In this document: in pieces, positions 1 through 3,962 of the stretch
Layout of the letters: every line of letters starts with the position of its first letter
Numbering within the stretch: position 1 is the stretch's first letter
NCBI GenBank assembly: GCA_903920405.1
Contig: CAIXMC010000151.1
Location: 1-17,219, forward strand
DNA: 17,219 nucleotides
Direction of reading: 5' to 3'
From: an uncultured beta proteobacterium
GTDB lineage: Bacteria > Pseudomonadota > Gammaproteobacteria > Burkholderiales > Burkholderiaceae_C
Made by a program: the position numbers and the translations under genes
The notes under the pieces: generated by a model
What the model was told of the DNA's origin: nothing
Database searches by the model: none
What the model saw: the letters and a program-made list of their open reading frames with translations, nothing else

Positions 1-121
1 GAACCAAAAAACTGGTCTTTTGACGTGAAATAACGAGCAAATCAACCACTACAAAAACTGAAGCAACGTAAGTCGTTGATTTGTAAAAGTGTTTTTTGGG
101 TGATGTTAAACATCGGCTAGC
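1..121. other. Non-coding DNA upstream of the intI fragment
   Basis: No convincing gene is seen here. The stretch precedes the 5' fragment of a second integron integrase, so by analogy with other integrons it could be the remains of an attI and promoter region. It contains a 13-nt palindrome, GATGTTAAACATC (102-114), just before the fragment's start codon. A short sequence CGTAAGTCGTTGATT (67-81) recurs in diverged form near 351-365. It shows no clear similarity to the DNA upstream of the intact intI apart from CTAGC next to the ATG. Confidence 0.3.
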
Positions 122-160
122 ATGACAGTCGACACCCCTGCGCCCCCAAGCTGCTGGATC
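122..160 (+). pseudogene. intI': 5' fragment of a second integron integrase gene
   Basis: The sequence from the CTAGC before the start codon to the GCTGGATC at 153-160 matches the first codons of the intact intI at 2226. Roughly three quarters of 45 aligned bases agree, with one base missing. It would encode MTVDTPAPP and, after the one-base shift, KLLD. The continuation across the inserted element (CAGC at 1384-1387) gives KLLDQ, a typical IntI N-terminus. After that, integrase similarity stops and an attC half-site begins. The fragment is therefore truncated at about codon 15, frameshifted and interrupted by a mobile element. Its presence in the same orientation as the intact gene suggests that a second integron once lay here. 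Confidence 0.7.
153..160. repeat. Left target-site duplication GCTGGATC
   Basis: This 8-bp sequence directly abuts the GTAACC end of the inserted element at 161 and is repeated exactly after the opposite end at 1377-1384. An 8-bp duplication is the known signature of IS66-family transposition. Removing 161-1384 restores an uninterrupted intI fragment reading KLLDQ. Confidence 0.85.
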
Positions 161-315
161 GTAACCGTTTAGACCCCCCTCAGCATTTTTAGGATTTTGG
201 CATTGTGTGCAGTCTTGGCGATCACAGGGTTATATACAGATCAACAACTTCTGATCATCGCTATGGACGGTTATGGACAAATTTCCCAAAAGTGGGAGGG
301 AGTCTAAACGGTTAA
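161..315. mobile_element. Short MITE-like unit at the left end of the composite
   Basis: The left end GTAACCGTTTAGACCCCCCT (161-180) is matched by an inverted copy, GAGTCTAAACGGTTAA, ending at 315. This gives a 155-bp unit with inverted ends of about 20 bp. The right end differs from the consensus in its last base (A for C). No 8-bp duplication flanks this unit alone: GCTGGATC is on the left and GCTGTCAA on the right. Either it decayed or the inner end is no longer used. No coding potential is seen inside. Confidence 0.55.
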
Positions 316-421
316 GCTGTCAATAATAAGTTTTATACCTACTTTTACATCGTAAGTTGTTGATTACAAATAGAACAGATACTATTTATACGTATCTAAT
401 TTATTATCCAACGATTACGCA

Positions 422-901
422 TTATGAGTATTTGATAACAATATACAGATAATATGGAGAATTTCCATAATTACCACCTCCACCACTTATTTGATTATCA
501 CAATCATCCCAATGTTGTTCAATAATTTCTATCTCACTCTTCCGAATGGAAGCTAAACTCGTTGTTTTATAAACAACGTGCATTTCATCGTAACCATTAT
601 TTCTGTATGCATTGATAAATCGGCCTTCAGGATTATTTGTTATACCAATCTTATAACTATCCTTATCTTTAACCAAGGCTTTGACCTTTTTTTTAATATC
701 ACAAATAACATTTGTTTGTACACCAGTAATATAACAATAGATAACACATTCATTTTCTTCTATTTTAGATGAACTATCATTTTCTTCAGTTTTGTCACAT
801 GTTCTGGAATTATGCCCAGGTTGATTGCAGATTCCGCAGCGCCGAACATCCGGACACGTTCTCAAGTTATGGCCTTCTTTATCACAATAACTACATTTCA
901 T
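422..901 (-). CDS. Zinc-knuckle protein with GIY-YIG-like nuclease domain
   Basis: This 159-residue protein has two CCHC zinc knuckles of the form CX2CX4HX4C: C3, C6, H11, C16 and C22, C25, H30, C35. Each contains the GHNxRTC signature. An acidic linker follows (about 36-52), then a domain with a GIY-YIG-like layout: YCYIT (55-59), YKIGIT (83-88), an arginine (R94), glutamates (E123-E128), N136 and a GGGG turn (140-143). GIY-YIG domains cut DNA and zinc knuckles bind nucleic acid, so a DNA- or RNA-directed nuclease is a reasonable inference. The start is supported by GGAG nine bases upstream. GHNxRTC knuckles are, to my knowledge, commoner in eukaryotic and giant-virus proteins. The gene is AT-rich and is the passenger of the surrounding element. 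Confidence 0.7.
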   Translation of the reverse strand: MKCSYCDKEGHNLRTCPDVRRCGICNQPGHNSRTCDKTEENDSSSKIEENECVIYCYITGVQTNVICDIKKKVKALVKDKDSYKIGITNNPEGRFINAYRNNGYDEMHVVYKTTSLASIRKSEIEIIEQHWDDCDNQISGGGGNYGNSPYYLYIVIKYS

Positions 902-1164
902 TTAAAATCTCCAAGAAAAAATTTTTATGTACCCATGAGTACCGTTTATGATATGACTAAAAATAACTTCCAGACATCAAACTTTCGCTGGAGTAGAATA
1001 GAATCACCAGATGGAAACATCCATATCTGGAACTAATTGTTGACCATATCCTTAATTACTTACAGCCTCCAACTAACTGACATTCTTTGCGAAGTGTCTC
1101 AAAATGAGCTGTTAGTTCTCTATTTTGAGTATCACATCTCGTTGCTATGGCTGTCATCTCAGAC
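902..1164. other. Upstream region of the zinc-knuckle gene
   Basis: This AT-rich stretch lies between the zinc-knuckle gene and the next internal copy of the GTAACC end motif. It must hold the promoter of the leftward gene. The ribosome-binding GGAG is at its left edge. A possible 33-codon ORF is annotated separately. Nothing else is recognised. Confidence 0.4.
1056..1157 (-). CDS. Possible small protein (33 aa) upstream of the zinc-knuckle gene
   Basis: An ATG at 1157 opens a 33-codon frame ending TAA at 1056-1058. The product begins MTAIATRCDT and ends VGGCK, with three cysteines and a mostly polar, helix-like middle. An in-frame stop lies just upstream in the GTAACC end motif, so the frame does not extend further. 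It reads in the same direction as the zinc-knuckle gene, about 155 bases before it. No family is recognised and no convincing ribosome-binding site is seen, so this may be chance. Confidence 0.2.
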   Translation of the reverse strand: MTAIATRCDTQNRELTAHFETLRKECQLVGGCK

Positions 1165-1376
1165 GTAACCGTTTAGATCCCCCTCCTTTGACCGTCGAAA
1201 TTCGCAATTTATAGGCAAGAAATTGTTTTCACTTTTTGGAGTTCATCTTCAAAGACGTAACCATTTAGACCCCCCTTGCGATTTTTTTCGCAGTGTTCTC
1301 CAAGTGAAGTGATTGATTTTTTTGGGACGCTGTCCTGCCACGGCCTCAAAACAGAGGGGGGGGTCTAAACGGTTAC
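1165..1376. repeat. Stacked IS66-type ends at the right of the composite
   Basis: Two same-orientation copies of the left-end motif start at 1165 (GTAACCGTTTAGATCCCCCT) and 1257 (GTAACCATTTAGACCCCCCT). One inverted copy, GGGGTCTAAACGGTTAC, closes the element at 1376. The pair 1257-1376 forms a 120-bp MITE-like unit, and the copy at 1165 is unpaired. Both left ends follow the trinucleotide GAC. The arrangement suggests repeated insertion or partial deletion of short related elements. Confidence 0.6.
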
Positions 1377-1384
1377 GCTGGATC
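1377..1384. repeat. Right target-site duplication GCTGGATC
   Basis: This is the exact repeat of 153-160 and lies directly after the terminal GGTTAC. Together they mark a single insertion of the whole 161-1376 unit into the intI fragment. Confidence 0.85.
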
Positions 1385-1387
1385 AGC

Positions 1388-1415
1388 GAAGCTCCGCTTG
1401 AACGTTGGGTTAGGC
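1388..1415 (-). other. attC: Half of an attC recombination site closing the hicBA cassette
   Basis: Read on the minus strand, the sequence just after the hicA stop is GCCTAAC, CCAAC, GTTCAAGCGGAGC. This matches the first half of an integron attC site: an RYYYAAC core followed by a GTTCAAGC-type inner box. The complementary second half (GCTTGAAC...GTTAGGC in the correct order) is missing. After GAGCTTC the sequence becomes the reverse of an intI 5' fragment. The site should therefore not fold into the normal attC hairpin, and excision of the cassette from this end is probably lost. Confidence 0.6.
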
Positions 1416-1421
1416 ATTGAT

Positions 1422-1628
1422 TTATAAATCACCTTCAGTAATACCCGCAACTTTCATAAAATGCTTAAGCAAACCGACTTTCAAATCTTCATTGCCATGT
1501 ACAGGCAAGGAAATACGGGCTGGATTTCCTGTCTTCATATAAACATGGTGGCTACCGTTTATCCGAACCAAATGCCAATCGCGACTTTCCAGAATTTTGG
1601 AAAACTTTTTGCCAGAAATTGATTTCAC
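1422..1628 (-). CDS. hicA: HicA family mRNA interferase toxin
   Basis: This 68-residue protein has the compact HicA fold, a dsRNA-binding-like domain that cleaves mRNA in the family. Visible signatures are the N-terminal SGKKFSKIL, the catalytic-region GSHHVY (residues 25-30) with histidines 27 and 28, [14 protein letters not shown] (41-54) and the C-terminal helix ending AGITEGDL. The start is a GTG at 1626-1628 that overlaps the hicB stop as GTGA, so the two proteins are translationally coupled. The gene is the second in an integron cassette, and toxin-antitoxin cassettes are known to stabilise integron arrays. Length and motifs are intact, so the toxin is probably functional. Confidence 0.88.
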
Positions 1629-1828
1629 ACTGCAAGCTCCAACACTCTGTCATCCTTGGAGATTTCAATTTGTTCCAAGTCCACAGAAAGACAGCCTTCC
1701 ACTGCTTCATATATGTTTGACAGCAGTTCTTCAAAAGTATCGCCTTGTGTGGCGCACCCTTGAATTGCAGGCACTTCCGCCCAAAACCCACCTTCTTCTG
1801 CGGGATGAATAATTACTTTTATTTTCAT
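1625..1828 (-). CDS. hicB: Short HicB family antitoxin
   Basis: This 67-residue protein matches the partial-RNase-H-like HicB fold (UPF0150 type): an N-terminal [18 protein letters not shown] strand-turn-strand, then [24 protein letters not shown], which is the usual xGDTxEEAxxNxxEA segment. HicB binds and neutralises HicA. This is the short form. It lacks the C-terminal ribbon-helix-helix or HTH domain that longer HicB proteins use to repress their promoter, so autoregulation cannot be assumed. The gene precedes hicA, which is the reverse of the commonest hicA-hicB order but is also seen in nature. No strong ribosome-binding site is seen before the ATG. Confidence 0.87.
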
Positions 1829-2225: not shown

Positions 2226-3203
2226 ATGACAGCCGAAACACCCTCACCACCCAAATTGCTGGACCGGTTGCGTGAGAAAATTCGTGTCCGTCACTATAGC
2301 ATCAGTACCGAGACACAGTACGTCCACTGGGTCAAGCGTTTTATTCTGTTTCACAACAAGCGCCACCCCAATATTTTGGGCGCGGTCGAGGTCGAGGCGT
2401 TTTTGACACATTTGGCTGTGGATGGCAATGTAGCCGCCTCGACGCAAAATCAGGCTTTGTCGGCCTTGCTTTTTTTGTACCGTGAAGTGCTAGGGCAGGA
2501 TTTGCCTTGGATGAAAGACATGGTGCGCGCCAAGCGTCCTACACGTTTGCCAGTGGTGTTAACGCAGCGCGAGGTGGTGTCGGTGCTGGATCGGATGGAG
2601 GGCACGCATGGGCTGATGGCGCGTTTGCTTTATGGCACCGGCATGCGCCTGATGGAAGTGGTGCGTCTGCGCGTCAAGGATGTGGACTTTGAACGTAACG
2701 AAGTGCTGGTGCGCGACGGCAAGGGCGCAAAAGACCGCGTGACCATGCTGCCGCAAACGCTCCACGAGCCGCTGAAAGCTCATTTACAAAGGCGTCGATG
2801 CCAGTTTGACGACGATCTGGCTCTGGGCAAGGGCGACGTGTTTTTGCCGGACGCGCTGGCACGCAAATATCCCAATGCACCTACACAATGGGCTTGGCAA
2901 TATGTGTTCCCTTCGGGCAGTTATTCGGTGGACCCGCGCAGTGGGGTGGAGCGACGTCACCATATGGATGAGAAACTGCTGCAACGCGCCATGAAAAAAG
3001 CGGTGCAAACAGCAGGCATCACCAAACTGGCCACTCCGCACACTCTGCGCCACAGCTTCGCTACGCATTTACTGCAAAACGGTTACGACATTCGCACCGT
3101 GCAGGAATTGTTGGGTCATGCCGACGTGGCAACCACCATGATCTACACCCATGTGCTCAACAAGGGGGGCAAGGGTGTTACCAGTCCGCTGGATGCTTTG
3201 TGA
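2226..3203 (+). CDS. intI: Integron integrase (tyrosine recombinase)
   Basis: This 325-residue tyrosine recombinase belongs to the integron integrase branch. The N-terminal SAM-like core-binding domain covers about 10-100, with [18 protein letters not shown] at 23-40. The catalytic domain has R141 (YGTGMR), H272 and R275 (PHTLRHS), H298 (LLGHAD) and the nucleophile Y307 (IYTHV). Between the catalytic boxes it carries the IntI-specific insertion, including [12 protein letters not shown] (236-247), which is absent from XerC/D and needed for binding the folded attC strand. The C-terminus GVTSPLDAL is typical and the length matches IntI1 (337 aa). It is intact and divergent from the hicBA cassette. 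Several chromosomal IntI types would fit; the class cannot be set without a tree. Confidence 0.95.
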
Positions 3204-3265: not shown

Positions 3266-3489
3266 TCAGGCAACTGGGACAGGATGTGCAGTTTCATGCG
3301 AAAGCACATCGCCCCGCAGTGTCAGTGCGGGTTTCGGTGATGCGCACATCCGCCATCTGCCCTATCAGATTGGGCTGGCCAACAAAATTGACCACTCGGT
3401 TCTGCCCATCAGTTCGTTGCTGTCGCGTCTGGATGTACCCTCTACCAAAATACGCTGCACCGTGCCAACACGACGCCAGGTGGAAGATG
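3266..3489 (-). pseudogene. miaB: C-terminal remnant of miaB (tRNA methylthiotransferase), frameshifted
   Basis: On the minus strand the sequence encodes, in three successive frames, [17 protein letters not shown] and NELMGRT, then [23 protein letters not shown], then LRGDVLSHETAHPVPVA followed by a stop at 3266. These are the linker and TRAM domain of MiaB, the radical-SAM enzyme that methylthiolates i6A37 in tRNAs. Two frameshifts (near 3395 and 3320) and loss of everything upstream show that it is dead. The break coincides with the start of the 140-bp repeat at 3487. A working copy presumably exists elsewhere in the genome. Confidence 0.8.
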
Positions 3490-3625
3490 CGATTCAAAGT
3501 GATGTGGAGGCGGCAATATTCACCAGTCAAGCTGCGCAAACTTGAGTGAGTTTTTTTGTATAACAAATCGGCCTCTAGCGCCCGTCCTGCTTGCGTAGAT
3601 AGCTATCTTTTTGATAGTTAAATAG
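3487..3625 (+). repeat. Left arm of a 140-bp inverted repeat (Comamonadaceae-type intergenic repeat)
   Basis: From TGCGATTCAAAGTGATGTGG to GATAGTTAAATAG this segment matches the reverse complement of 11656-11795, with about nine in ten bases identical. It includes AACAAATCGGCCTCTAGCGC, a run of T and the hairpin GATAGCTATCTTTTTGATAG. The second half resembles an intergenic repeat I associate with Comamonadaceae genomes. The first half holds the GATTCAAA motif found four times in this window. Confidence 0.85.
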
Positions 3626-3680
3626 GCGAATAAATTCGTCTAACATGTGTCCTTGTATGTATCCATGTTTGCTGCTCTAT

Positions 3681-3700
3681 ATCACTTTGAATCGCACCCC
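3681..3700 (-). repeat. Additional copy of the GGGGTGCGATTCAAAGTGAT motif
   Basis: The plus strand reads ATCACTTTGAATCGCACCCC, the exact complement of part of the repeat arm at 11772-11798. It lies between the left repeat arm and the IS66 remnant. It may mark the end of an unidentified repeated element. Confidence 0.6.
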
Positions 3701-3720: not shown

Positions 3721-3962
3721 TTCTAGATTCCTCAGTTATGACACAGGCTGGTGTGCCGTTCACCAACAACCTGGCCGAACAGGCAGTGCGTATGCCAAAG
3801 GTGAAGCAAAAAGTCTCTGGCTGCTTTCGTAAACCCGAAGGCGCCAAAACCTACTGCATCATCCGATCCTATTGTGCGACCATGCACAAACAAGGAGCAA
3901 ATATCTTTGAGTCTCTTGTCGCTGCCTTTAATGGCTCTACGCCTCAGCCAAACTTCGTCTGA
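3721..3962 (+). pseudogene. 3' remnant of an IS66-family transposase gene
   Basis: Only the C-terminal 70-80 residues remain: GVPFTNNLAEQAVRMPKVKQ, then GCFRKPEGAKTYCIIRSY and KQGANIFESLVAAFNG, ending PQPNFV. The NNLAEQ box holds the third acidic residue of the IS66 DDE active site; the first two are lost. Just before it the reading frame looks shifted (FLSYDTG in another frame). The fragment is followed by the right end of the element at about 4000. The left part is replaced by repeat sequences. Confidence 0.85.

Follow-up and report, generated by a model that had tools for sequence, protein, structure and literature searches.

A probable MITE-bounded composite with IS66-type ends and a GIY-YIG-like passenger gene in a decayed integron

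Positions 161 to 1376 of the window (the whole analyzed stretch of 17,219 nt) probably form a composite bounded by MITEs, for which the term mobile insertion cassette is equally suitable; it would have jumped as one unit and taken along a GIY-YIG-like gene as a passenger. The left end GTAACCGTTTAGACCCCCC begins at position 161, the right end GGGGGGGTCTAAACGGTTAC finishes at position 1376, and the two copies of GCTGGATC which flank the unit match in 8/8 positions. The ends and the exact 8-bp target duplication described in the initial annotation were therefore borne out. This also applies to the claim that the unit contains no transposase. The ORFs of at least 60 aa within 161-1376 comprise the 159-aa ORF, which the domain scan covered, and three shorter ones (60-74 aa) in the opposite direction, and a search of the whole genome with PF03050 gave no match in the unit.

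The coordinates of all features are summarized in Table 1. A repeat search and a pattern search of the genome revealed five ends of the same family within the unit: 161 (+), 298-315 (-), 1165 (+), 1257 (+) and 1376 (-). The three inner ends had been overlooked in the initial annotation, which took the unit for one IS derivative carrying a nuclease-like gene. This reading is ruled out by the inner ends together with the existence of free-standing copies of MITE A.

Table 1. Features of the window around the unit. C-labels denote loci in the window's own genome (G000), L-labels stretches from other genomes.
Feature	Position	Strand	Remarks
3' end of a different repeated element, to the left of the unit	1..115	+	similar stretches at C152, C410, C169
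44-bp stretch (second copy) resembling an integron integrase gene start	117..160	+	direct repeat 117-147 / 2221-2251, 77%
Left 8-bp target duplication	153..160		GCTGGATC; within the intI remnant
Whole unit	161..1376		1216 bp; GTAACC... / ...GGTTAC ends
MITE A, complete	161..315		155 bp; 95.5% to C329, 94.8% to C355, 80.3% to C426
Remnant matching a second-family MITE end	319..332	+	14 bp, GGATATGGTCAAYAATAAGTTCC; comparison by eye
159-aa ORF	422..901	-	two CX2CX4HX4C zinc knuckles (1-35), GIY-YIG-like domain (~51-157)
Probable degenerate second-family MITE	949..1051		103 bp; right end 1 mismatch, left end 6/23 mismatches, TTA at either side
Truncated left part of another GTAACC-ended element	1165..1256	+	1162-1256 identical to C442:5883-5977
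MITE B	1257..1376		120 bp; 81.7% to C435:244-354; right 23 nt as in the L122 IS66 right end
Right 8-bp target duplication	1377..1384		GCTGGATC
Half attC-like site	1385..1421	-	GCCTAAC...CGTTCAAGCGGAGCTTCGCT; by eye; cut off at the insertion site
Cassette-like toxin-antitoxin pair	1422..1828	-	hicA 1422-1628, hicB 1625-1828
Integron integrase, intact	2226..3203	+	TIGR02249, E 6.5e-150

The segments 161-315 and 1257-1376 are MITE-sized units in their own right, and their interiors differ. Free-standing MITE A is found at C329 and C355, each time with an 8-bp duplication of its own that matches in 8/8 positions. A stand-alone MITE at each edge is what characterizes a MITE-bounded composite; this is less firm for MITE B, since its sole near relative with both ends found in the own genome, C435 (81.7%), has flanks that match in 1/8 positions. 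The right flank of MITE A (GCTGTCAA) and the left flank of MITE B (TCAAAGAC) have no partner, which is expected if their partners remained at the donor site. The sequence of C442 diverges past the stretch that is identical to the window. A search of plasmids with MITE A gave no match at E 1e-5.

Ends of this type are frequent in the own genome (2.68 Mb in 458 contigs, 89.8% complete). Allowing up to 3 mismatches, 39 forward and 34 reverse ends were detected, 73 in total, compared with 1 + 3 = 4 for a reversed control pattern; 68 of the 73 fall outside the unit. The units of the family have lengths of 85-94, 111-120, 138-141 or 154-156 bp and several unrelated interiors, as expected where one transposase serves many hitchhikers. 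Duplications were counted for 63 distinct ends with full flanks, which are part of the 73. Ten of 21 simple units showed 8/8 matches, two showed 7/8 and nine at most 4/8, the last group including 161-315 and 1257-1376 of the window. Among six nested pairs only 161/1376 reached 8/8. Other copies with different 8-bp duplications, which the initial annotation had suggested to look for, are thus present.

Scanning a genome contig collection of 84,980 species, from which the own genome is perhaps absent, with an 18-base end yielded 58 stretches from other genomes: 30 from KT_bin-2367, 20 from Loclat_bin-01332, one each from Loclat_bin-12181, a Rubrivivax MAG and a Gammaproteobacteria MAG, and five from three MAGs of Magnetococcales. 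The KT_bin-2367, Loclat_bin-01332 and Loclat_bin-12181 MAGs are all titled uncultured beta proteobacterium. The flanks matched in 8/8 positions in 17 of 40 simple units and in one of 17 nested pairs (L134 626-891), and 22 of the 40 simple units had at most 5/8. Simple units with at most 5/8 matches (9/21 and 22/40) indicate that flanks are often rearranged or that pairs were wrongly joined. An exact 17-mer of the ends was absent from 59 relatives, and the ends were not found in viral contigs.

These counts bear on the question of whether two unrelated MITE insertions could have matching outer flanks by coincidence. MITEs are dense in the own genome and the inner flank GCTGTCAA of MITE A has GCTG in common with GCTGGATC, but we regard a chance match as highly improbable. 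When all pairs of the 63 fetched ends were compared, 12 of 1953 pairings matched in 8/8 positions. Eleven of these fall, by unit count, on partner ends (the 10 simple units plus 161/1376), which leaves one further match. The rate for non-partner pairs, counted as 1953 pairings minus 11 partner pairs, is therefore 1/1942 (~0.05%) in the own genome; at the other loci, where 23 of 7503 pairings matched, 18 of them partner ends by unit count, it is 5/7485 (0.07%). Furthermore, only four end pairs are testable in the window: 161/1376 matches in 8/8 positions, the remaining three in 4, 3 and 2 of 8.

The interior of the unit also contains traces of a second MITE family with the ends GGATATGGTCAACAATAAGTTCC and a frequent length of 159-160 bp. 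This family outnumbers the GTAACC family, with 160 forward and 161 reverse ends (321 in total; control 0) in the own genome. By reading, 16 of 21 listed pairs have the same TTA or TAA on both sides. The right end of this type at 1051 may pair with 949, and the gene at 422-901 sits among pieces of other MITEs. Outside the unit, the stretches at C152, C410 and C169 that resemble 1-115 are followed by TTAG or TTAA, and CTAG follows 1-115 in the window. Rfam gave nothing at gathering scores for the window.

For the origin of the unit we propose the following course. Two short elements, both non-autonomous and with ends of the IS66 type (ISBst12-like), would have ended up on either side of some 0.94 kb of largely AT-rich DNA, in which the GIY-YIG-like gene and fragments of further MITEs are located. 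The outermost ends, the left one of MITE A and the right one of MITE B, would have been used by a trans-acting IS66-family transposase, and everything between them would have moved into an intI remnant joined to a half attC-like site, with duplication of GCTGGATC. One event on the outermost ends accounts for the outer duplication and for both orphan inner flanks, and we infer that both outer ends moved in this way. A second composite-like case is L134 626-891, in which the outer flanks match in 8/8 positions and those of the inner pair 747-891 in 5/8. Two findings count against movement as one unit: the own genome contains one copy of the whole unit, a search for a second copy being negative, and the empty insertion site which had been predicted was detected in none of 60 genomes (the own genome and 59 relatives). 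A homologous locus that could show 161-1376 as ancestral sequence was not found at all, and other copies as well as IS66 elements share the ends.

Stepwise assembly would lead to the same arrangement by more steps. A GTAACC element would have inserted into GCTGGATC, nested MITEs and the DNA with the gene would have followed, and the inner duplications would have been lost through recombination of ends with like orientation or through integration of a circle with one such end; in this case the outer duplication would predate the cargo. Nested insertions do occur: a 141-bp MITE lies inside the right end of another one at C8, a second-family MITE end is located inside a GTAACC element at C188, and at L134 a truncated MITE abuts an intact one within one outer duplication. 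A precedent is also given by the available part of a study which proposes circle integration via recombination between MITE copies for other MITEs (PMC13367494). Nevertheless, we consider this course rather unlikely, because it demands a series of insertions plus either a circle or no fewer than two deletions, whereas movement by the outer pair is one event and also covers both orphan inner flanks.

The composite reading needs a transposase in trans, and full-length IS66 elements sharing the ends, which the initial annotation had suggested to look for, were found in two genomes. The element L122 876-2697 (Loclat_bin-12181) has a length of 1822 bp, two perfect ends and one ORF for an IS66 transposase of 564 aa (PF03050, E 3.6e-37; NF033517, 223.5 bits versus a cut-off of 180). 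This ORF leaves 97 and 30 bp at its sides and no room for further IS66 genes, and 23 nt of the right end are identical to 1354-1376 of the window. The element L100 599-3519 (Rubrivivax MAG; 2921 bp) has ends with 1 and 0 mismatches and codes for an IS66 transposase and a protein with a DruA domain (PF14236). The right-end identity to L122, the PF03050 and NF033517 matches of its transposase and the 8 bp in short copies place the ends of the unit among IS66-derived non-autonomous elements, in line with the IS66-type ends described initially; the 8-bp duplication rests on the short copies, as the flanks of L122 (2/8) and L100 (1/8) show none. The single ORF of L122 fits the layout of the ISBst12 group in the accessible part of PMC12898284.

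Judged by these sequence matches, the L122 type is likely to be the autonomous partner type for the ends of the window, and the transposase responsible for the movement was presumably of this L122-like IS66 type. Mobilization in trans, as suggested in the initial annotation, is consistent with the ends shared with L122 and L100. Against a partner of the L122 type count the missing duplications of L122 and L100 and two end-rich genomes without a match, the own one and Loclat_bin-01332. The L122 transposase was searched for in six genomes behind these loci, KT_bin-2367 not being among them. It was recovered from its source genome; the Rubrivivax MAG yielded a 39% relative plus one weak match, two genomes of Magnetococcales yielded weak matches, and Loclat_bin-01332 and the Gammaproteobacteria MAG yielded none. 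The 458 contigs of the window's own assembly gave no match either. Repeats are often lost from such assemblies, and the true partner transposase may be more distant than the L122 type. The PF03050 search revealed two IS66 fragments in the own genome, and no GTAACC-type ends were found at the fragment locus C255. Positions 3738-3848 of the window contain a C-terminal IS66 fragment, whose C-terminal sequence is by eye unlike that of L122. Beside this fragment the 22-bp inverted repeat TGCGATTCAAAGTGATGTGGAG is located at 3488-3509 and 3675-3696; at C400 a 138-bp MITE has inserted into a similar motif.

The passenger gene differs in composition from its surroundings, with a GC content of 0.325 for the ORF and 0.489 for the window. 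A zinc-knuckle/GIY-YIG-like gene, as claimed initially, is present, but its typing is weak: the two CX2CX4HX4C motifs were spotted by eye and all Pfam hits of the protein are under the curated cut-offs. A search that admits lengths of 0.55-1.75 x query identified 32 relatives besides the protein itself (91-119 aa), which were retrieved without genomic context. MUG113 matched 20 and T5orf172 16 of 21 members (Pfam, E up to 0.1), and R94, E123 and N136, which we take to be the conserved R, E and N of the GIY-YIG motif, are invariant in all 21 aligned rows. The structure model reaches high confidence in its core only (pLDDT 89-94 per block across 51-130). A GIY-YIG-like fold is likely, and from the sequence the protein may have nuclease activity. 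The zinc knuckles, which this bacterial protein combines with a GIY-YIG-like domain, are absent from all 20 aligned relatives. No solved structure was found by sequence at E 1 and NCBIfam gave no match, while PHROGs searched with the protein and two relatives gave only matches with E 0.0028 to 0.036. With the relative P0013 as query no match was found in plasmids or phages at E 1e-5. With the alignment as query, 398 further genomes of the order yielded one weak match (20 bits), 397 further genomes of the phylum yielded none at E 1e-5, and viral contigs yielded one short match of 38%.

A dedicated gene-carrying element seems very unlikely to us, be it a transporter IS (tIS) or a mobile insertion cassette in which the nuclease aids transposition or target choice. 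The ORF has remained open and the invariant residues R94, E123 and N136 would fit such an element, but the unit holds only five of the 73 ends and the gene was found once in the own genome, where it sits among fragments of other MITEs and without a second copy of the whole unit. The same counts speak against the self-mobilizing or target-choosing role considered in the initial annotation. The gene is presumably an AT-rich passenger without any link to transposition and would have played no part in it. The tIS assignment itself is unsupported because there is no transposase inside the unit, which is bounded by two different MITEs. According to the accessible part of PMC9330008, tISs are IS derivatives with passenger genes, and in contrast to the unit the tIS66 ISPa75 carries a transposase of its own (PMC12888890, available in part).

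The left copy of the duplication lies in an integrase-like remnant, and the right copy is followed by the half attC-like site, the hicA/hicB pair and an intact integrase; the unit is thus located in a decayed integron. The segment 1385-1421 was typed as attC-like by comparison with the attC consensus. The intI-attC junction may predate or postdate the insertion of the unit. No attC is visible by eye downstream of the gene across 316-421. We give hardly any credence to the far-reaching idea that IS66-type MITE composites carry genes into and around beta-proteobacterial integrons, with the zinc-knuckle/GIY-YIG cargo kept since its DNA cutting aids their spread.

Comparison with known systems, based on the accessible parts of the cited sources, shows that the unit is of a known kind. 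In IMU, TIME-COMP and the Acinetobacter composites with 439-bp MITEs, two short transposase-less elements likewise bound other DNA; in MITE-bounded composites the target duplication is usually around the whole, and integron-associated cases are published (PMC13367494, PMC3934969, PMC10969869). These systems have Tn3-type or unmatched ends and 5-bp duplications (none for IMU), whereas the unit has IS66-type ends, 8 bp and two bounding MITEs that differ inside. With GTAACC ends, 8 bp and an IS66 partner type it is no Tn3-derived TIME-COMP. Bracketed by inverted repeats and a target duplication, and holding a passenger gene and no detected transposase, it also fits the definition of a mobile insertion cassette. 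MIC231 and mic-qnrD have the same attributes (PMC3913671); in contrast to them, the unit is bounded by whole MITEs and is internally a mosaic of pieces from other MITEs. It shares GTAAC ends and an 8-bp duplication with IS66/ISBst12, and its presumed partner L122 has one transposase ORF. Published are IS66 ends GTAACCGTCCGGGCA with 8-bp duplications, ends starting GTAACCG (PMC12888890) and an 8-bp repeat at an element of the ISBst12 group (PMC12898284). Since composites around integrons are known and the cassette definition fits, the IS66-type ends are the new detail: the literature matches listed contain, in the parts available, no report of IS66-ended MITE composites, and both 14-base end strings were absent from the literature searched.

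Taken together, a window that resembled one exotic element resolves after counting of the inner ends. The analysis links a large family of short elements with a type of IS66 partner and contributes, beside an integron, an IS66-type example of the MITE-composite route by which genes move.
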